A DNA stretch of 64,000 bases from Flavobacteriales bacterium (lineage in GTDB: Bacteria > Bacteroidota > Bacteroidia > Flavobacteriales_D > Crocinitomicaceae), in contig CANFRV010000007.1 of the NCBI GenBank assembly GCA_947449575.1, forward strand, positions 1 through 64,000, given 5' to 3'. Positions 34,846 to 45,689 of the stretch are shown in pieces. Position 1 is the first letter of the stretch. Each line of letters begins with the position of its first letter. A program made the translations under genes and the position numbers. The notes under the pieces are model-generated. The model was given only the letters and a program-made list of their open reading frames with translations, was not told where the DNA came from and ran no database searches.

Positions 34846-36078
34846 ATGAACGAAAAACTCGTCAAAGAATTAGAAAATCAATTAAAACTAAAAGATTTTA
34901 AATTAAATTCTTTGTTAGAGATTACAAATGCTATTAATTCTAATCAACCTGTTGATCAATTAAGCCGAATTTTTGAATTTATTTTAAAGGAGCAATTGGG
35001 ATTCGATAAATTCATACTTTTTAACAAACAAGATGATTGGAATTGTATGTTGAAAGTTGGATTTAGGGGGAAAATTAAAGATATTGATGTAGTGCGTGAC
35101 CTCTTTCGTTTTAAAGATATTACAGTAATCGAATCTTCACCCTCGATTATCTTAAATGAGTTTGACATTGTCGTTCCGATTTTACATAAGGAAGTTCCTC
35201 TCGCCTACTTACTGATTGCCGGACTAGAACATCAAAAGCTTAAAGTTTCTGAAACGATGAGCAATATGAGTTTTATTCAAACACTGGTTAACATCATAGT
35301 AGTTGCCATTGAAAACAAACGAATGGCCAAGGCAACTATAAAGCAAGAACGCTTGAAAAAAGAACTAGAAGTTGCTTCTGAAATGCAAAAGCTACTTTTC
35401 CCTGCGGACTTACCTTCTAATAAAAGAATGGATATTTCTGCTAAATATAAACCACGTCATGAGGTCGGAGGAGATTATTATGACTTTATACCGCTTGGAG
35501 AAGAGGAATATATTCTATGTATGGCGGACGTTTCTGGCAAGGGGATTAGTGCCGCATTATTAATGGCCAATTTTCAGGCAACTATACGAACAATCTTCCA
35601 TTACCAACGTTTTGACATGGAATTCTTAATGAAAGAGCTCAATCAAAAGGTCATGACGAGCGCTAAAGGAGAAAAGTTTATTACCTTTTTTATAGCTCAT
35701 TACAATGCCGATACACGCATATTGAAATATATAAATGCAGGACATAATCATCCGTTCATCACGAATGGAAAAAATGTGAAAATGCTTGATTTAGGAAGTA
35801 TTGGGTTAGGTATGATGGATGAATTACCGTTTTTAAATGTGGGGGAAATTGTTCTAAAACCGAATACTACTTTAATATTATACACCGATGGAGTAGTTGA
35901 ATTAGAAGATCTGAATGAAAATTATTTTGGTTTAGATCGATTGGTTAAAATGGTACATAGTTATTACCCTCTTAAAATGGAAGATTTAAATAATTTGATT
36001 TTTTCAAAATTAGACGAATGGCGTGGACCTTTGAAATTGGTTGATGACACAGCTATTTTTAGTTGCCGTTTCTTTTAA
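34846..36078 (+). CDS. GAF-SpoIIE serine phosphatase (RsbU type)
   Basis: A 410-residue soluble protein. An N-terminal helix leads into a GAF-like sensor region (about 15-155), then a coiled linker (KQERLKKELEVASEMQKLL), then a PPM/SpoIIE phosphatase domain (about 175-410). Metal-binding motifs are seen in EVGGDYYDF, CMADVSGKGISAALLM and LYTDGVVEL. RsbU-type phosphatases act on anti-sigma-antagonist proteins or other phospho-serine partners. No such partner gene is adjacent. The gene end overlaps the 3' end of the opposite SGNH-like gene by 20 bases. Confidence 0.88.
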   Translation: MNEKLVKELENQLKLKDFKLNSLLEITNAINSNQPVDQLSRIFEFILKEQLGFDKFILFNKQDDWNCMLKVGFRGKIKDIDVVRDLFRFKDITVIESSPSIILNEFDIVVPILHKEVPLAYLLIAGLEHQKLKVSETMSNMSFIQTLVNIIVVAIENKRMAKATIKQERLKKELEVASEMQKLLFPADLPSNKRMDISAKYKPRHEVGGDYYDFIPLGEEEYILCMADVSGKGISAALLMANFQATIRTIFHYQRFDMEFLMKELNQKVMTSAKGEKFITFFIAHYNADTRILKYINAGHNHPFITNGKNVKMLDLGSIGLGMMDELPFLNVGEIVLKPNTTLILYTDGVVELEDLNENYFGLDRLVKMVHSYYPLKMEDLNNLIFSKLDEWRGPLKLVDDTAIFSCRFF

Positions 36079-37012
36079 TCAAAGAATCAACTTTTTTCAA
36101 CTCCTCTTTCAGGATTTTCGTGTACAATAAAGAAGCTTTTTTGTTCAAATGCACTATATCAAACCACGAATCAATTGTCTTAAATTGGTTAAACTCCTTT
36201 GCATTAAAGTCGATGTATGGAATATGATTATTTTCACAAAAAGACTTAACGCGAAAAGAAGCATGTTCAAAATTTTTCGGATAATAATAATGAGGACCAT
36301 ATATAATTATTAGTCGCACATTATTTTTCCTACAAACCAAATTAGTCGCTTGAAGGATATTCAAAAACTCATCGTTAAATTTTGTGTATTTTATTTTTTG
36401 CTGTATTTTTTTTCCCTTTAACACTTTGACACTATCATAAATGGTCGGGTAAAGTGGCGTATAATTTTCATGCGTATCATCGCAAATAGATTGTAATTGA
36501 TTCGTCGCCAACAAAAAATTCTCTCCGTTAAATTTATAACTAGAAAGTAAAAACTTATATTTTTCAAATGGACTTTTGCTGTCAATTCGATCTTTGATAA
36601 ATCCTACTTTGTCATAATAATATTTTAGGTAAAAAACATTATCAATTAAATCCGATTTATTTTCAATGTATATATCTTCTGCTTCTAGGTTTAATATCAA
36701 TACTTTTCGAGGTAATTTCTTGTATTTTTCCATCAGATGAATGACACAAGAATTATAATAAAAATGTTTTCCTTTGGAAGCGACATTTAAGACATTTTTT
36801 CCGATTGAATCAGTATTTATCATACTTGAAACTCTCGAAGAACCTAAAAAAATAGTGTCTGCGTTTTGGAATTTTAAATAATAATTCAAATCACCTCCAC
36901 TGTGCTTGCAGAAATTATTTTCATACAAATCCCTCAATTTCGCACTTGCTATTCGATCAATAATCAGAATTGAGAAAAAAATAACAGCGATTTTGATCAA
37001 TGTTTTTTTCAT
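36059..37012 (-). CDS. SGNH/DltD-like protein partnered with MBOAT
   Basis: A 317-residue protein with an N-terminal membrane anchor (KIAVIFFSILIIDRI). The body fits the SGNH hydrolase fold: a block I-like TIFLGSSRVSS with the candidate nucleophile Ser near 57, central VLILNLEAEDIY, and a C-terminal WFDIVHLNKKAS with Asp and His spaced like the catalytic D-x2-H. Proteins of this kind (DltD, AlgX/AlgJ, PatB) work with MBOAT acyltransferases outside the membrane to move acyl groups to cell-surface sugars. The MBOAT gene ends 2 bases upstream, strong evidence for a working pair. The acceptor is unknown. Confidence 0.7.
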   Translation of the reverse strand: MKKTLIKIAVIFFSILIIDRIASAKLRDLYENNFCKHSGGDLNYYLKFQNADTIFLGSSRVSSMINTDSIGKNVLNVASKGKHFYYNSCVIHLMEKYKKLPRKVLILNLEAEDIYIENKSDLIDNVFYLKYYYDKVGFIKDRIDSKSPFEKYKFLLSSYKFNGENFLLATNQLQSICDDTHENYTPLYPTIYDSVKVLKGKKIQQKIKYTKFNDEFLNILQATNLVCRKNNVRLIIIYGPHYYYPKNFEHASFRVKSFCENNHIPYIDFNAKEFNQFKTIDSWFDIVHLNKKASLLYTKILKEELKKVDSLIKRNGN

Positions 37013-37014
37013 GA

Positions 37015-38424
37015 TTAAAATTGAAAGTAAATAAACTGTCCACCTTCTGCTCTTCCAAGAAAGACAATACTAAAAAATAAAAGAATGCAAAAAGGGTAAA
37101 AAATATACTGAGGAATTTTCGTCAAAGTCGCCAATGGCATTTTCTTCAGGTATAGTTCAACCATTAGTAAAATAAAAATGCCGAGAAATACAAAATTATA
37201 GCGATTATCAGATAAAAAGAAGAGAAAATCTCTCCAATCTAGCGTAAAAATACGACCATAAATAGTATACAATTGGTGAACATTTTCAATTCTAAATGAG
37301 ATAAAAATGAATGTAATAATTAAAAAAGTACTTACTGTTTTAAGAATCCGAATGAGAGAAAAACGCGTAGCAATGTTTAATTTAAAAACTCTTTCACACA
37401 CCATCACTAATCCATGCAGAAATCCCCAAATAATAAAATTATACGATGCCCCATGCCATATTCCAATAATGACAAATGCTATAAAAAGATTAATGTAGGT
37501 TCGATATGCTCCTTTTCTATTTCCACCCAAGGGAATATAAATGTAATCTCTAACCCAATTGGATAAAGAAATATGCCATCGTTTCCAAAAGTCAGAAACA
37601 GATTCTGAAAGGAATGGTGAATTAAAATTTGCCATCAATTGAATGTCAAATAATTTCGAAATACCAATCGCCATAAAAGAATAACCGGCAAAATCGGTGT
37701 AGATTTGAAAAGTAAATAGCAAGGCGCCATAAGCCAAATTCCCACCTGTTTTTCCCTCCAAGTTATCAAATATCGAATCAACTATGAAAGCAGCATTATC
37801 TGCAATCACTACTTTTAAAAACAATCCCCATACTATATAAAAAATTCCAATCTTCAAATGATTCGAAGTAAAGTTGAACTGTTTCTTTTTGAGTTGAGGC
37901 AATAGTTGACTTGCTCTTTCTATGGGGCCTGCTACTAATTGAGGGAAATAAGTAATATATAACGAAAAATAGAAGAAATTTCTTTCCGGTTTTATATCCT
38001 TTCTATAAACGTCAATTGCATAACTAATCGATTGGAAAGTATAAAAACTAATTCCCATAGGTAAGAGAATATTCATTTCAGGAATGACGTAATCAATTCC
38101 TATTAAAGCTAATACTTGTTGAGAAATTAATAAAAAGAAACCGATGTACTTAAAAGAAAAGAGTATTGCTAAACTTAGAATTAAACTCAAAACAATCCCT
38201 TTACGACTCCTTTTAGGATTGTCCGAACTTGTTAAATAAAGAGATATATAAAAATCAATGATGGTTGTCAACAATAACAAGAGTATATATATTGGATTCC
38301 AATACATATAGAAAACATAGCTTGAAATTAGCAATAGAACCCATTTCTTATTATTGGGTAAAAGCCAAAAAATGGCAAAAACAAATAGTAAGAATAAGAA
38401 AAAATCAAAGCTGTTGAATAACAT
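37015..38424 (-). CDS. MBOAT family O-acyltransferase
   Basis: A 469-residue polytopic membrane protein of the membrane-bound O-acyltransferase family (AlgI/DltB/PatA type). It has about 10-12 hydrophobic segments. The family signature includes LVAGPIERASQLLPQ, a conserved NFNSPFLSESVSDFWKRWHIS stretch, and the active-site His in IGIWHGASYNFIIWG near residue 325. Such proteins pass acyl groups across the inner membrane for O-acetylation of exopolysaccharide, peptidoglycan or teichoic acid. It lies 16 bases after porU2 and 2 bases before the SGNH gene, so surface acylation linked to T9SS-attached material is an attractive inference. Confidence 0.9.
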   Translation of the reverse strand: MLFNSFDFFLFLLFVFAIFWLLPNNKKWVLLLISSYVFYMYWNPIYILLLLLTTIIDFYISLYLTSSDNPKRSRKGIVLSLILSLAILFSFKYIGFFLLISQQVLALIGIDYVIPEMNILLPMGISFYTFQSISYAIDVYRKDIKPERNFFYFSLYITYFPQLVAGPIERASQLLPQLKKKQFNFTSNHLKIGIFYIVWGLFLKVVIADNAAFIVDSIFDNLEGKTGGNLAYGALLFTFQIYTDFAGYSFMAIGISKLFDIQLMANFNSPFLSESVSDFWKRWHISLSNWVRDYIYIPLGGNRKGAYRTYINLFIAFVIIGIWHGASYNFIIWGFLHGLVMVCERVFKLNIATRFSLIRILKTVSTFLIITFIFISFRIENVHQLYTIYGRIFTLDWRDFLFFLSDNRYNFVFLGIFILLMVELYLKKMPLATLTKIPQYIFYPFCILLFFSIVFLGRAEGGQFIYFQF

Positions 38425-38440
38425 TTATCTACCAAAAAGA

Positions 38441-41400
38441 TTAACGAAGAATATACATTTTCCCGAAATCTTTCGTAAAATGGGAATCGGCACCAGAATC
38501 ACGATGTTTGATATCTTCGCCTCCTATTCGGCACTTTACTCTGTATAGATAGACTCCATTTGCTAATGGGTCACCAAATTCATCTGTTCCATTCCAATCA
38601 TAGGTAGAAATATTACGACCTATATAAATTTGGCCCAATTCGGATTCAGTAATTTCACGAACAACCTTTCCTGTCACGGTCATAATTTGAATAATCATAT
38701 CTTGAGGCACTTCCGTACCTGTCAATGTAAACACAAAACGTGTGCTAGTGCTAAACGGATTTGGATAATTCATAAGATACGTGATGGAAGATTCACGAAT
38801 AATCTCAAATGAAATTTTATATTGAATATCTCCTGACAAATTGCCACTTCTATCCGAACCTTGCACCAGTAAAGAATACTTTCCGTCTACTTCAAAGGAA
38901 GCTGGGAAAATTATTTTAAATCGTTTATTCGTTAAATCAGCAGGAATCCATTGCATAATAACATTTCCCGATCCATCCATAAATGGAATTTTTTTCTGAA
39001 CACCATCTGGTCCTGTTAAATAAACCCCAAATCTTGCCGTATCCGCGACATTATCCATGATCAATAATGGATTCTCATCCTTCAAAGTGATGTATATTTC
39101 GCTGCTTGGAGAAACAATATCACCATTCAAGATATGTCTTCCATCAAAAGTTACATCAAGAATTGGATTAATATCATCCTTTCCAACGTAAAATGGGATT
39201 TGAAGTAAATTATTAAAATGTTCTTGTTCTGGTTGATCAGTAATATATAAACTTCCTGCCACATATGGATTTACCTCCATCCAAAGAGAGTTTATTCCCA
39301 CTAGACCTATCGTCGAAAACTCTATCGTATCTCTAAAAACTTCATTTACCACCAAGGAATCTTGTCGAAGATATGCAATTGGATGTTTGACATGAGCATT
39401 GTCTTCCACCCAATATTTTACCAACAATGAATCCATATCGATCGTGAAAATATTTTTTATATCAATTGCAAATTTGACGATTTCACCTTCATTTAAAGTG
39501 TCTTTAGAAGGTAGCCAAGTATAACCATTCGTAGCATCAATAGCTGCTTCTGGGACCGGCTCAAACAAAACATGCCATCTATCTACCTGGGCTGGATTGG
39601 GCACAAAGTAAGAGGTGTCAAAATAATTAGCTTCTAATTTTATGTAAGGATAAAGAGAAGCGTCGACCATAGTATTTAAATCTACTATAGAATCATTGTG
39701 CGTAAACAACGTGTCGATCTCATATTGAAATGCTTGCTCATGATTGTAGACTTTTATTTTTAATTCAGTGCTATCACTAGGTGTAAGATCTAAAGGGTCT
39801 TGTTTCCAATACACATTCCCCCATTTACTTGCTGGTCCAATTAAAGTAGATGTTTCAGCACCTTCCCCAAGAACTTTTTCTAGAGCTATATTATAATCAA
39901 TAACATCAGAACCTGTTAATGCAAATCGTTCAATTACACTGTTAGGGTCTCCTTTTTTGCAAAAGAAAGAAAAAGGGAGATTAGGTCTTCCTGGTACAAT
40001 ACTATCAGAACCTAAACTCGCAAAAACATCATACATTGTAGGATAACCTGCAACACTTGGATAATACGTATTCCACCAATCATACCTCGCACCCATAGTG
40101 GTGTATATAAGTAGATAAAATCCATCTGGGACTTGATTTAGGACTAAATCTCTAAAAGAATTTAAATAAGTAGCTGAATTTGTGGGGTAGACAAAATGAT
40201 ACATCGTACGAGCAGAGCATGCACCGTTGTCATTTTGATTTCCAAAATTATGCGTTAAGTTCTCTCCCGTAGGCACATATCTTGTTCCCCATGGAATATG
40301 CGTAATAGGATCAATAATGACCACCATAAGAGAAGGTGTTAAGACACAATATGCGCCTTCAATTTTTTGACCATTTAAATAAGATGCACACACACCGTAT
40401 GCACTATGCACGAACGATCTTAAAGTATCAGGAGGATCCACTGTAAATTCGCGCTCTCTTGTTGCTCTATTATAAATAATATTATTAAATCCATTTTTCT
40501 TAAATTGAAAGAAATGTTCCTGTCCCCAACCCGTTTTGCCTATAATATATTGAAAAGACCTTTCTCGCCAATCATACACACTGCTATCAATCGATACTCT
40601 CCAAAAATAAACAGTGCTGTCTGTACAAACTAATTTTGAGTACATATTAGTTGCAACTGATTTCCATTCAGAAGGATTTACTTCCTTCACGCCTCCAAGG
40701 CCCGAAACGTTTGCATAACGCCATTCTGGACTATTAAATAAATCTGTCGTATCAATTTCAAAACGATACGTATTGTAAGCAGCGACAGGATTAATCGTGG
40801 AGGCTTTAACCGTAACACTGTCGATTGGTACAACCGCAAAATCGTAAGGAATGACCGGCAGGATTCCATCAATATCAATAAAAAGCGTCTTCGTTATCCT
40901 ATTATTTTCTATTTCATCATATTGTTCTGGAATTACTGAAGGAATATCAGCAGCTACAGTAATGTTATTAATACCGACACCAATGTTATTTTGCAAAGCC
41001 ATCGTGTAATGAATAGTATCCTTATAATTTAATCTTGGAACACGGACTTCATAAATAGAATCTACGCTTAATAGTGGGAAATCTCTTCTAATCTCAACAG
41101 TAAAAGTATCAACGATCGCTCGTCCTAAGTTGGTTAAAACAATACTAACGGTAATTGAATCAACAGTTAAATCCAAATCTTCAGGTGAAAAAGAAACTTT
41201 ATCCGCTGTAAGTTCAATTTCAGGATTTTCATGCCAATTCAATCTCAATAGCGGGTCTCCCAGTAAATTCATTTGCATGGCGGTCGTTTCATGAATTATA
41301 CTGTTGCCGTTTGTTACTTGCAACGTGTCAATGGTATTACTCAACTGCTCTGAAAGCGTTTTACCATACCCCCAATAACTAAACTGAGCGTATAAATCGT

Positions 41401-43618
41401 TGGAAAAAGTATTTAAAGGTTGATCTAGCCCATCTGCATCAGATCCAATAAAAGCAATAGCTCCCTCTTGAGGAAGATTAACAAATCGCTCAGAAACCGA
41501 AGGAGTAGCAGTATTGACAAACATATTTCCTGCCCAACATGAATTTGCAAGCACAACCGGATATTTCCCCACATTATTCCATTCAGAGGCTACATCAATA
41601 TTGATGTCAAATCCGGAGGCAACTGCTGGCGCAGCATGTCCAAAAAAGGTCATTAAGGAAACTCCTTTTTGAATTCTATTGGTCACAATAGAAAGCAAAT
41701 CTGGATCGATCGGAGCTGAAGAAGTTTTAAAATAACTCTGCACATTTCCTGCATAATTAGAATCTTCGATAGTTGCTTTCATTGAATTTAAAAAGCCTCT
41801 AAATGTGCTTTGCTGTGTTAAATTCAAACCTCCTCCAAAATGTAAAACTTGTTTTTGCCAGTCTTTTTCATCTGAATTATATACAGAATTTGGATCTTGT
41901 TGCAATTCAAATTCCTTCACTTTACTTAAATAATCCGTCAATTCAAGATTTGTTTTTACCGAAATTCTTCCTGTTGGGATTAAAGGTTTCCAGGTGCTTC
42001 CCGTCAAATAAGAAGTAATTGCAACATCACTTGCTGGCTCTCCAAAAGTAGGAACACCATTCATAGCATAACTTGAAGTGTTTGTCCTAGAGCCTGGTGA
42101 ACCATATGGCCAACCACTATCCGCAATAGAAATTCCTTTACCTACCAGAAATAAAGCAACAGGTTTCTTTGTTGCCCCATTATACATTAGATGTGAAAAT
42201 CTTCTTATCGCATTAATATGTTTATTAATACCTCCTCCAAATTGTAAGTACAATTCTTCCACATTAGCCATAATTGTGGAGTAAGAGCCTCCTGCAATGG
42301 ATTGTCTATATGTTTGGTAATCAATAACGGAGGTGCTTAATTGTGAGTGATAAATCAATAGTAAAGCAGAATCTGCGTTGAGTGCAGAATAATCCGTGAA
42401 AATACCAGTTCCATTGACCATTTTTAATGTTGTGACAGGAATTAGAGACGAAAAATCTCGAATAACAACTTGTTGATTGACCCCACTCAAGCTATTAGGA
42501 ATCAGCGTGCTATAACCTGCACCATATGCAGATATACTTGCTTTGATTGGCATACTCCCTAGCACAAAAACAACAGGATTGTTTACAATACTATTCGTAA
42601 AATCTAATCTTATTTTTGACCCTAAAGTAGCATTAACTATCTGAAAATTTCCCAAAGAAGTGCCGTCTAGAGTTACTTTTTTTGGATAGGTTATAGCCCA
42701 ATAATTTAAAGATTGATAATCCGTCGCTGCACCTTGATCACCAATAATCGACCACTTGAGAGGAGTCAATCCATCTGTCAATATATTACTAGAAAAAGTT
42801 TGGTCAGCGAAAATCCCTTGATAATTGGAGGAAATTTGATCAAATAGTAACAAATCGGAACTTCCAATTTTCCAATTCATGTGATGATTTTCAAATGGAG
42901 GATCTACAGGGGCATCAGAGTTAGTGGTTGAAATCCCTTTAAAAGTTGCACTTGGAGCATCACTTCCAGTGTAAGGAGAATTGGTTGCTACATTTAAAGC
43001 TAATGTGTACCCAGACGCACCATTTACTGGAGCTAAGCCAAAACCCTCTCCAGGCATAAATAAGGAACTAGCCGCAAAAGAAATTCTACCACCGCCCAGA
43101 TTATAATAAGTCCCATAGTAAGACTCTACTTTTTGAATAATATAATTGGCCGGTGTATAAGAAGAGTAACTAACATCTGATTCGACAGTATACCTCAAAT
43201 TTGATGTGGATGAATTCCATGTAAAAAAATAATTTATGGTATCATTTACCAGACTGTATGAAGGATTTCCAATTTTAGTGGGGTCTTGATATAACGTTGA
43301 ATCCAACCAACCATCATTTTTTTGAGCATAGAATAAAATATAATCTCCTGGATCAATACTTGAATCGCCGCCATCTTCAATGTGCAAAGGAACCTCCTTT
43401 TCACGTCCAAAAATCTGAATATTTTGAGCACTAAAAGTAGTAAGTGGAATCCCTGAAGCATTCAAGGCTGCATAATCCAATTTATAAATCCCTGTATTTA
43501 CAATTGGAAAAGTAAAATATTTTTGGTCATAAGAAATCCATTCGTTCCCATAAATCTGAGATAAAACATCAGAACCAAATGACAAGACAAGAAATAAAAA
43601 TAGTACTATTTTTTTCAT
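38441..43618 (-). CDS. porU2: PorU2-like type IX secretion sortase (C25 peptidase family)
   Basis: A 1725-residue secreted protein, longer than classic PorU (about 1160-1280). It has a signal peptide and a beta-rich pro-like region, then a gingipain-type C25 peptidase domain (about 430-800). The catalytic pair is visible as His in TFFGHAAPAVASGF (near 660) and Cys in VVLANSCWAGNMFV (near 691). Long repeats of Ig/CARDB-like beta modules follow. The C-terminal FlgD-like module (NYPNPFSTSTRFVFTL, NGVYLYRV) resembles a sorting tail. PorU removes the C-terminal signal of T9SS cargo and transfers it to a surface anchor. PorU2 is a lineage variant encoded after PorV2, 2 bases apart. Which cargo it serves is unknown. 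Confidence 0.85.
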   Translation of the reverse strand: MKKIVLFLFLVLSFGSDVLSQIYGNEWISYDQKYFTFPIVNTGIYKLDYAALNASGIPLTTFSAQNIQIFGREKEVPLHIEDGGDSSIDPGDYILFYAQKNDGWLDSTLYQDPTKIGNPSYSLVNDTINYFFTWNSSTSNLRYTVESDVSYSSYTPANYIIQKVESYYGTYYNLGGGRISFAASSLFMPGEGFGLAPVNGASGYTLALNVATNSPYTGSDAPSATFKGISTTNSDAPVDPPFENHHMNWKIGSSDLLLFDQISSNYQGIFADQTFSSNILTDGLTPLKWSIIGDQGAATDYQSLNYWAITYPKKVTLDGTSLGNFQIVNATLGSKIRLDFTNSIVNNPVVFVLGSMPIKASISAYGAGYSTLIPNSLSGVNQQVVIRDFSSLIPVTTLKMVNGTGIFTDYSALNADSALLLIYHSQLSTSVIDYQTYRQSIAGGSYSTIMANVEELYLQFGGGINKHINAIRRFSHLMYNGATKKPVALFLVGKGISIADSGWPYGSPGSRTNTSSYAMNGVPTFGEPASDVAITSYLTGSTWKPLIPTGRISVKTNLELTDYLSKVKEFELQQDPNSVYNSDEKDWQKQVLHFGGGLNLTQQSTFRGFLNSMKATIEDSNYAGNVQSYFKTSSAPIDPDLLSIVTNRIQKGVSLMTFFGHAAPAVASGFDINIDVASEWNNVGKYPVVLANSCWAGNMFVNTATPSVSERFVNLPQEGAIAFIGSDADGLDQPLNTFSNDLYAQFSYWGYGKTLSEQLSNTIDTLQVTNGNSIIHETTAMQMNLLGDPLLRLNWHENPEIELTADKVSFSPEDLDLTVDSITVSIVLTNLGRAIVDTFTVEIRRDFPLLSVDSIYEVRVPRLNYKDTIHYTMALQNNIGVGINNITVAADIPSVIPEQYDEIENNRITKTLFIDIDGILPVIPYDFAVVPIDSVTVKASTINPVAAYNTYRFEIDTTDLFNSPEWRYANVSGLGGVKEVNPSEWKSVATNMYSKLVCTDSTVYFWRVSIDSSVYDWRERSFQYIIGKTGWGQEHFFQFKKNGFNNIIYNRATREREFTVDPPDTLRSFVHSAYGVCASYLNGQKIEGAYCVLTPSLMVVIIDPITHIPWGTRYVPTGENLTHNFGNQNDNGACSARTMYHFVYPTNSATYLNSFRDLVLNQVPDGFYLLIYTTMGARYDWWNTYYPSVAGYPTMYDVFASLGSDSIVPGRPNLPFSFFCKKGDPNSVIERFALTGSDVIDYNIALEKVLGEGAETSTLIGPASKWGNVYWKQDPLDLTPSDSTELKIKVYNHEQAFQYEIDTLFTHNDSIVDLNTMVDASLYPYIKLEANYFDTSYFVPNPAQVDRWHVLFEPVPEAAIDATNGYTWLPSKDTLNEGEIVKFAIDIKNIFTIDMDSLLVKYWVEDNAHVKHPIAYLRQDSLVVNEVFRDTIEFSTIGLVGINSLWMEVNPYVAGSLYITDQPEQEHFNNLLQIPFYVGKDDINPILDVTFDGRHILNGDIVSPSSEIYITLKDENPLLIMDNVADTARFGVYLTGPDGVQKKIPFMDGSGNVIMQWIPADLTNKRFKIIFPASFEVDGKYSLLVQGSDRSGNLSGDIQYKISFEIIRESSITYLMNYPNPFSTSTRFVFTLTGTEVPQDMIIQIMTVTGKVVREITESELGQIYIGRNISTYDWNGTDEFGDPLANGVYLYRVKCRIGGEDIKHRDSGADSHFTKDFGKMYILR

Positions 43619-43620
43619 CT

Positions 43621-44715
43621 CTACTTAGGTTTGTTTAACTTTATTCGTAAGGAAATAACATGAGAATATAAGGCAACTGATGCATCACCAATATCCGTAA
43701 AAGCATAATCCAAATGAAAATTTTTGATATTTAATCCTACACCGATATTAGGTTGCACATTCAATTTTTCAGTATCATCATAATTTTTTACATATTGAAT
43801 ATTGGAAATACCAGCACGAATAGCAAAATAAGTTTTGAAACCAAATTCAATTCCCATATGCGGATCAAAGGAAAACAGTTTCGTTTTCATCAAGGTATTT
43901 CTTCTGCCATCAGATGTCATATCCAGGTTTATTTCACTGGCAACATAAACGCCTTGTTTTCCAAGATTAAATTTTCCATAAGACGCAAAAATAAACCTCG
44001 GAAGCGTTATTTCTAGCCCATTTTTTGGTAGTTCATTTCCTGTCTTAATAAACACTTCTTGCATTTGAGAATCAAGATTAAAAACCCACGCATTAAAAGT
44101 AGACGTAACATCTCTAGACATTATTCCAAACTTAAAATTTTTGACATAATATTGAGCGCCAGCATCCAGACCAAACCCCCATGACTTGGCAAAATCGCCG
44201 ACTTTTCTATTAATTAATTTAAAATTACCCCCAACACTAAGTCCTTTAATCCTTAATTTTCTGGCATAGGAAAACAAAAAAGCATAATCTGCCGCTGTAA
44301 AAGTTGTTATTTTCGTATAGTCGACATTTCCTTGCTGATCAATTAGTTGAGTCGTATTTGGAATATCGTCAACTGCAAAGCGTATAGCTGAAAAACCAAC
44401 CGTACTTTTTTTATCAATTGCGTGGGATAATCCTAAATAATCATATTTGGCAATTCCTCCAAAATACTCAGAGTGCATTAAGCCAACCTCCAACCACTTA
44501 TTAACTTGTGTCAATCCTGCAGGATTCCAATAACCAGATGTCACATTTCCAGTTTGAGCGACTACCGAATTAGCCATTCCAAGAGCATCAGCCCCTATTC
44601 CAATCGCTAAAAATTCATTGGAATATTTTGGTGCAACTTTATCTAATTGAGCAAATGTATCGAAACCATGCAGTAACACTGAAACGAAAGTAATATTTAA
44701 AAAAATTAAACGCAT
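43621..44715 (-). CDS. porV2: PorV2-like T9SS outer-membrane protein
   Basis: A protein of about 364 residues with a signal peptide (ending GFDTFAQ) and the PorV/LptO family beginning FLAIGIGADALGMANS, then VTSGYWNPAGL. The rest alternates like a FadL-type 14-stranded barrel. PorV carries T9SS cargo from the translocon to the sortase PorU. Here the gene precedes porU2 by 2 bases, as expected for the PorV2-PorU2 pair. The ATG at 44715 begins at the signal peptide; ATGs at 44721 and 44742 are also in frame. A long inverted repeat lies just upstream at 44735-44768. Confidence 0.85.
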   Translation of the reverse strand: MRLIFLNITFVSVLLHGFDTFAQLDKVAPKYSNEFLAIGIGADALGMANSVVAQTGNVTSGYWNPAGLTQVNKWLEVGLMHSEYFGGIAKYDYLGLSHAIDKKSTVGFSAIRFAVDDIPNTTQLIDQQGNVDYTKITTFTAADYAFLFSYARKLRIKGLSVGGNFKLINRKVGDFAKSWGFGLDAGAQYYVKNFKFGIMSRDVTSTFNAWVFNLDSQMQEVFIKTGNELPKNGLEITLPRFIFASYGKFNLGKQGVYVASEINLDMTSDGRRNTLMKTKLFSFDPHMGIEFGFKTYFAIRAGISNIQYVKNYDDTEKLNVQPNIGVGLNIKNFHLDYAFTDIGDASVALYSHVISLRIKLNKPK

Positions 44716-44734: not shown

Positions 44735-44768
44735 AAGAACACTATTTTTCATAAAAAATTGTGTTCTT
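44735..44768. repeat. long inverted repeat upstream of porV2/pssA
   Basis: AAGAACAC (44735-44742) and ATTTTT (44744-44749) pair with AAAAAT (44754-44759) and GTGTTCTT (44761-44768), with one T-T mismatch and a 4-base loop. It sits in the divergent region between porV2 and pssA. No T-run follows on either strand in the right place, so it is more likely an operator or RNA stem than a terminator. Confidence 0.6.
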
Positions 44769-44852: not shown

Positions 44853-45689
44853 ATGTTCAATATACCCAATTTATTTACTGCAGCCAATCTGCTTTCAGGC
44901 GTTTTTTCAATCATCTTCGCACTTATGGGAAGAATTGACCTTGCTCCTTTTTTGATATTTGCGGGCGCAATTTTTGACTTTTTTGATGGATTCTTGGCTA
45001 GAAAATTGAATCAGTCGGGCGAACTTGGAAAACAGTTAGACTCGTTGGCAGATATGATCACGTTTGGATTAGCACCCGGAATCTTCATGATGGTTGTAAT
45101 GATCATTTCTCTCACAGATCTGAAAAGCGAAATTTTAAGTCCCAACTTCAATTCTCATGTAAATTTCATACTCACTAATTGGAAAAATGCGGTGTTTTAC
45201 GACGTGCCAAATGAAATGAACAATAGTTTAAAATACACCCCTTTTTTAGCACTATTTATTCCGTTTATGTCTATGTTTCGACTTGCAAAATTTAATATTG
45301 ATACAAGGCAATCAGAATCATTTATAGGTTTAAATACTCCCGCAAACACAATTTTTTTTACTACTTTTCCATTGGTTCTTTTAATCGAATTTAGTCAAAA
45401 AGGATACCAAGACGCTTGGATTAATATGATTTTCCAGCCAGGATTTTTCATTGTTGTAATTGGCTGCATGTCACTCCTTCTAATATCAGAAATACCGATG
45501 TTTTCTTTAAAATTTAAACACTTTAAGTGGCAAGGAAATCAGATTAGATTTTCTTTTTTAATAATTTGTGGATTATTAATCGCTTTTTTATTAGTATGGT
45601 CTATTCCATTAATTGTACTTTTGTACCTTGTACTATCATTTATTGATAATAAGTTAAATAAAAAACAAACACATGAAATTCAAAGCTGA
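44853..45689 (+). CDS. pssA: CDP-diacylglycerol-serine O-phosphatidyltransferase
   Basis: A 278-residue integral membrane enzyme that makes phosphatidylserine, the precursor of phosphatidylethanolamine, from CDP-diacylglycerol and serine. The CDP-alcohol phosphatidyltransferase motif is complete: D45-G46-x2-A49-R50-x8-G59-x3-D63-x3-D67. About eight hydrophobic segments follow the usual PssA plan. Translation ends 17 bases inside the purS gene, so the two are likely co-transcribed. It is divergent from porV2. Confidence 0.92.
   Translation: MFNIPNLFTAANLLSGVFSIIFALMGRIDLAPFLIFAGAIFDFFDGFLARKLNQSGELGKQLDSLADMITFGLAPGIFMMVVMIISLTDLKSEILSPNFNSHVNFILTNWKNAVFYDVPNEMNNSLKYTPFLALFIPFMSMFRLAKFNIDTRQSESFIGLNTPANTIFFTTFPLVLLIEFSQKGYQDAWINMIFQPGFFIVVIGCMSLLLISEIPMFSLKFKHFKWQGNQIRFSFLIICGLLIAFLLVWSIPLIVLLYLVLSFIDNKLNKKQTHEIQS

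Follow-up and report, generated by a model that had tools for sequence, protein, structure and literature searches.

A variant sortase gene, porU2, adjoins an exchangeable slot for probable surface-glycan O-acyltransferases in Crocinitomicaceae

Results

The window, that is the whole stretch of 64,000 nucleotides of a Flavobacteriales contig that was analysed, contains a leftward run of four genes coding for a PorV/PorQ-family protein, a variant type IX secretion system (T9SS) sortase, an MBOAT acyltransferase and an SGNH-type partner (Table 1). An earlier note on this DNA had described these genes as lying 2, 16 and 2 bases apart, and this agrees with the open frames on the minus strand, although for porV2 an alternative GTG start at 44742 is likewise open. 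The gene identities proposed there are also upheld, as PorV2 and PorU2 both score above their NCBIfam cut-offs and the MBOAT is recognised by its Pfam model. On the far side the run meets a SpoIIE-type phosphatase gene, which the SGNH gene overlaps by 20 bases at the SpoIIE 3' end. The genes are individually ordinary; their arrangement is rare, and it is part of a wider and apparently undescribed pattern.

Table 1. Features of the porU2 locus, in positions of the window
Feature	Position	Strand	Remarks
porV2, PorV/PorQ-family outer-membrane protein (putative T9SS PorV2)	43621..44715	-	ATG start; NF052325 479 bits against a cut-off of 325
porU2, variant T9SS sortase, C25 peptidase domain	38441..43618	-	1725 aa; NF052324 660 bits against 450
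PorU2 His661 codon, putative catalytic His	41636..41638	-	Invariant column; coordinates computed from the frame
PorU2 Cys694 codon, putative catalytic Cys	41537..41539	-	Invariant column; coordinates computed from the frame
MBOAT O-acyltransferase	37015..38424	-	469 aa; PF03062 E 2.5e-28
MBOAT C-terminal acyl-shuttle motif FIYFQF (FxYxxF)	37018..37035	-	Motif per PMC12148441
SGNH/DltD-like acyltransferase partner, N-terminal membrane-anchor helix	36059..37012	-	317 aa; residues and predicted fold
SpoIIE/PP2C-type phosphatase gene, far side of the slot	34846..36078	+	PF07228 E 4e-37
CDP-alcohol phosphatidyltransferase (PssA-like) gene, divergent from porV2	44853..45689	+	PF01066 E 8e-18

PorU2 carries a full C25 domain (Peptidase_C25, PF01364, E 1.4e-46), in which His661 and Cys694, 33 residues apart, are invariant among six aligned congeners, and its C-terminus gives a weak match to a sorting-like domain (22.6 bits against a cut-off of 23). 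The protein is not the canonical PorU, as it reaches 158 bits with NF033707, where the cut-off is 420; the canonical PorU of the same genome is encoded on a separate contig (C22) and scores 1256 bits with this model. In the order, porV2 adjoins porU2 in 119 of 133 deduplicated loci. The literature searched holds no description of the function of PorU2 and PorV2, nor of an MBOAT combined with the T9SS. Three loci (L176, L245 and L270) have tandem porU2 pairs. The PssA-like gene that is divergent from porV2 (position -2, loci L037-L236) is present in 107 of the 112 readable loci with an adjacent porV2, which makes it the most conserved neighbour, far above the MBOAT. Archaetidylserine synthase is among its weak NCBIfam matches, recalling archaeal protein-sorting systems, but the gene could be merely the housekeeping PssA.

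For the MBOAT, the nearest solved structure is DltB (E 1.1e-24), and His284 and His324 do not vary across an alignment of 30 MBOATs. The protein ends in the six residues FIYFQF, in agreement with FxYxxF, the C-terminal acyl-shuttle motif of MBOAT-SGNH pairs, which was shown for PatA and belongs to a published acyl-relay mechanism (PMC12148441). The SGNH partner matches no family in Pfam or NCBIfam, and a profile search against solved structures gave nothing significant, the fold matches having come from the predicted model alone. The label "SGNH/DltD-like" given to it earlier is nevertheless borne out by Ser59, Asn108, Asp285 and His288, which are common to 12 aligned relatives (one row partial), and by an AlphaFold2 model (pLDDT 90.6) for which Foldseek matches GDSL acylhydrolases, DltD and PatB. 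By its sequence, then, the pair is a regular member of the MBOAT-SGNH class, probably of the normal surface-polymer O-acyltransferase type. I rejected a true DltB/DltD pair, as the MBOAT scores 155 with the DltB model against a cut-off of 375 and no ligase or carrier gene (DltA/DltC/DltX) is found among its neighbours in the window. Besides the copy at the locus, the genome encodes five MBOATs. The partners of a second MBOAT clade (L141:4314-8417 in G158; L140; L004, which is contig C17 of the genome itself) carry GNC where the serine motif GSS would be expected, and are without Asp-x-x-His; they may represent a cysteine variant of such partners, which in G158 occurs alongside an AMP-ligase and a carrier protein.

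Among the 138 loci of the order, the succession porU2-MBOAT-SGNH in the same order and direction is found in four genomes only, namely this one, two congeners (G153 and G155) and a member of another genus (G234), while in the sister species G157 a fragment of the beginning of the MBOAT gene still follows porU2. The recurrence in two congeners and one other genus indicates that the arrangement is not due to chance, and an insertion unique to this genome, which would have spoken against the earlier proposal of a coupling between sortase and acylation, can be dismissed. Conservation of the four-gene order across Bacteroidota, on the other hand, is not observed: most relatives are without it, for which reason I also discard a conserved four-gene operon, and among 40 PorU2 loci outside the order there is no MBOAT and a single AT3 (acyltransferase-3) gene, at +1. 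Most relatives have a SpoIIE-type phosphatase gene or other genes facing porU2; a SpoIIE-type gene faces it directly in 39 of 138 deduplicated loci, and this is taken as the ancestral state in the family Crocinitomicaceae. Pairs of the same MBOAT-SGNH clade lie elsewhere in other genera, beside Ham1 and isocitrate dehydrogenase genes, and some are near glycosyltransferase and asparagine-synthase genes. Several metagenome-assembled genomes titled Chryseobacterium gleum, Chitinophaga pinensis or Actinomyces viscosus hold loci of the Crocinitomicaceae type and are misnamed records.

Within the genus, the content of the slot 3' of porU2 differs from species to species. The MBOAT-SGNH pair is present in this genome, G153 and G155. 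In G157, where PorU2 is 96% and the SpoIIE protein 98% identical to those of this genome, DNA homology with the window ends 80 bases into the MBOAT and restarts at the end of the SpoIIE gene; between these points the first ~27 MBOAT codons are kept, after which come transposase-like sequence (by eye) and, among other genes, one of the GT2 kind. In G158 the slot holds an AMP-ligase, a carrier protein (ACP), a different MBOAT and its partner, all on the strand opposite to porU2, and in G159 the same end (the MBOAT end) of such a set is seen before the contig stops. G150 and G151 have an AT3 gene instead, the copy in G151 being cut by the contig end, and in G160 and G154 the slot is empty. These states alternate inside a nine-row clade of the PorU2 tree. 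The GC content of the cassette is 28-30%, against 36% for porU2, and falls to 24-27% in two relatives. As the AT3 proteins are mutually only 25-31% identical (apart from G150 and G151, at 48%), they do not represent one inherited gene.

Some further observations concern the same junction. The slot of G157 also contains a 71-aa frame (L139:15540-15755) which by eye resembles ribosomal protein L20 and is possibly a pseudogene or a stray copy. In several relatives (L137:1569-2495, L147:10108-11034) a gene for an LpxD-like hexapeptide-repeat acyltransferase (by eye) directly precedes SpoIIE, a position from which it is absent in the window. In another family of the order, f3, porU2 is followed either by a multi-membrane-span protein or, in genomes related to these, by a convergent AT3 gene (L053, L056, L107 and L112 versus L054, L055, L108-L110, L113 and L114); the multi-membrane-span protein has no Pfam match and is GT-C-like by eye, and the genes further downstream are the same in most of these loci.

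Over the Flavobacteriales as a whole, an MBOAT or AT3 gene occupies the +1 or +2 position of porU2 in 18 of 138 deduplicated loci, and these acyltransferases of the 3' flank belong to two unrelated superfamilies. In all loci of the order taken together, 22 of 309 genes at +1/+2 are of these two kinds, as opposed to 6 of 2077 at the other positions of these loci (Fisher P 3e-15, a value that takes no account of relatedness and should not be read literally). From genome density, ~0.64 such genes would be expected at +1/+2, on the basis of 6.9 such genes per genome in 60 genomes of the family and an assumed 3000 genes. By parsimony, the PorU2 tree requires at least 7 changes of state, losses being counted as well as gains, and the significance of 7 events is only borderline (P 0.04) on the supposition that such genes are five times as frequent in acquired DNA as in the genome. 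The AT3 profile had been seeded from genes adjacent to porU2, and the contrast was therefore repeated with Pfam models: in 60 genomes of the family, among the matches listed (to the same extent for both genes, coordinates compared by eye), an acyltransferase lies within 3 kb downstream of 7 of 50 PorU2 genes and of 0 of 57 canonical PorU genes (P 0.004). Collapsed to genera, the same contrast among the matches listed is 3 of 22 versus 0 and is not significant (P 0.23).

The majority of porU2 slots have no acyltransferase. Where one is present, it mostly faces porU2 from the opposite strand (L140/141, L057, L171, L225, L047 and the f3 family), so that shared transcription is not the common feature of these loci, and co-transcription is weakened as the link between the genes. 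At the acyltransferase-bearing loci L171, L225, L057 and those of the f3 family, porU2 is not adjoined by a SpoIIE gene, and the bias thus tracks porU2 and not its usual neighbour. Of the coupling between sortase and acylation genes that was proposed earlier, the adjacency stands; the operon as a conserved unit does not, given that most relatives are without it, the genes are exchanged and the enzyme is mostly encoded on the opposite strand.

Discussion

The explanation that I consider somewhat better than an even bet is that the MBOAT and the SGNH protein form a normal acyl-relay enzyme, encoded in an exchangeable slot for surface-glycan tailoring genes beside porU2. The MBOAT would take an acyl group, probably acetyl, from a donor in the cytoplasm and load it onto the FIYFQF tyrosine, from which the membrane-anchored SGNH protein would receive it on Ser59 before handing it to a hydroxyl group on a glycan of the periplasm or, as I presume here, of the cell surface. 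The slot that the pair occupies, between porU2 and the facing gene, has repeatedly gained and swapped probable surface O-acyltransferases in Flavobacteriales, mostly in Crocinitomicaceae, in the form of MBOAT-SGNH pairs, a Dlt-like four-gene set or AT3, with a glycosyltransferase set in one species instead. It may thus work like a serotype-conversion cassette site that adjoins a sortase gene. The decorated glycan is probably displayed together with the T9SS cargo and possibly carries it, and a functional tie to PorU2 may exist. The recurrence would be explained most simply if the decorated glycan and the product of PorU2 shared the cell surface; perhaps they are the same molecule.

The latter possibility is the core of the earlier proposal, in which the pair acylates the anchor, a glycan or lipid, that receives the cargo from PorU2, and PorU2 uses or requires this anchor in its acylated form. 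A sortase for an acylated glycan anchor is one possible reading of the recurrent neighbourhood bias: the genes form a tight co-directional run, acyltransferases recur beside porU2 and, among the matches listed, not beside canonical porU, and the linking sugar of the T9SS is N-acyl- or aminoacyl-tailored by Wbp/Vim enzymes (PMC7468200). However, PorU2 persists without a neighbouring acyltransferase in most relatives, including G160, G154 and, after loss, G157, both the orientation and the family of the acyltransferases vary, and the precedent is one of N-acylation and not of an MBOAT-SGNH pair. Moreover, VimA is the known marker of that linking-sugar pathway, and with TIGR03019 as a proxy no VimA-like gene was found above the cut-off in 12 genomes of the genus including this one; three weak matches were recorded among the 12. 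I therefore regard this proposal as rather doubtful. In a broader version, a speculation that I would put forward with little confidence, PorU2 would attach a set of T9SS cargo to a glycan or glycolipid of the surface, and the exchangeable cassette would determine how this molecule is acylated, allowing species to change the chemistry of their protein anchor or coat by exchanging the slot, for instance under phage pressure.

Alternatively, the convergent junction of porU2 and SpoIIE may be a harmless landing site, and with surface-sugar genes being over-represented among acquired genes everywhere, the neighbourhood would be uninformative on function. Such hitch-hiking would fit the many slots that are empty or hold unrelated or housekeeping genes, the transposase-like remnant in G157, the GC content of the cassette below that of porU2, and the lack of significance in the genus-collapsed control. 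Yet it does not account easily for two unrelated acyltransferase superfamilies recurring at +1/+2 while being almost absent from the rest of these loci, nor for acyltransferases at loci without a SpoIIE partner, and I consider it unlikely. Less probable still is that the pair O-acetylates peptidoglycan or a secreted polysaccharide unrelated to the T9SS, as PatA/PatB and AlgI/AlgX do, and is merely co-transcribed with porU2. The motifs are the same as in PatA/PatB, a PatB-like fold is among the matches, and pairs of the same clade sit away from porU2 in other genera; but the five other MBOATs of the genome could do such work, and the recurrence beside porU2 would be left unexplained.

The bias of O-acyltransferases towards porU2 and, among the matches listed, not towards canonical porU offers a concrete lead on what PorU2 works on, hinting at a link between surface-sugar decoration and protein anchoring. 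Outside the oral pathogens, few anchors of T9SS cargo are known. If this bias is real, protein sorting would be joined to the diversification of surface glycans, a matter of relevance to phage resistance and to the surface identity of Bacteroidota in fresh water and the sea.

Sortase-like enzymes are encoded near genes for exopolysaccharide or lipid synthesis in exosortase/PEP-CTERM and archaeosortase clusters as well, although the enzymes and signals are unrelated and the gene links in those systems are far more conserved. With PorU/PorV of Porphyromonas gingivalis and its A-LPS linking sugar (Wbp/Vim), the locus has in common the conserved His and Cys of the C25 domain, an adjoining PorV-like gene and a sorting-like domain at the C-terminus of the sortase itself; PorU2, in contrast, is a separate family of ~1725 aa that coexists with a canonical PorU, and N-acylation in the Wbp/Vim system is carried out by other enzymes, whereas the locus described here has an MBOAT-SGNH pair. 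This pair resembles PatA/PatB, AlgI/AlgJ/AlgX and DltB/DltD in the two histidines of the MBOAT, its FxYxxF end and an adjoining SGNH protein with an N-terminal membrane helix and catalytic residues, and differs in that its operon is without DltA, DltC or DltX and in that it sits beside a T9SS sortase gene. As to the slot itself, it is a fixed chromosomal site next to porU2 at which no prophage was seen, and its likeness to the serotype-conversion cassettes (O-antigen O-acetyltransferase; gtrA/gtrB/gtr-type) is by analogy: in both cases small AT3, MBOAT-SGNH or glycosyltransferase sets that decorate surface sugars appear to be exchangeable.
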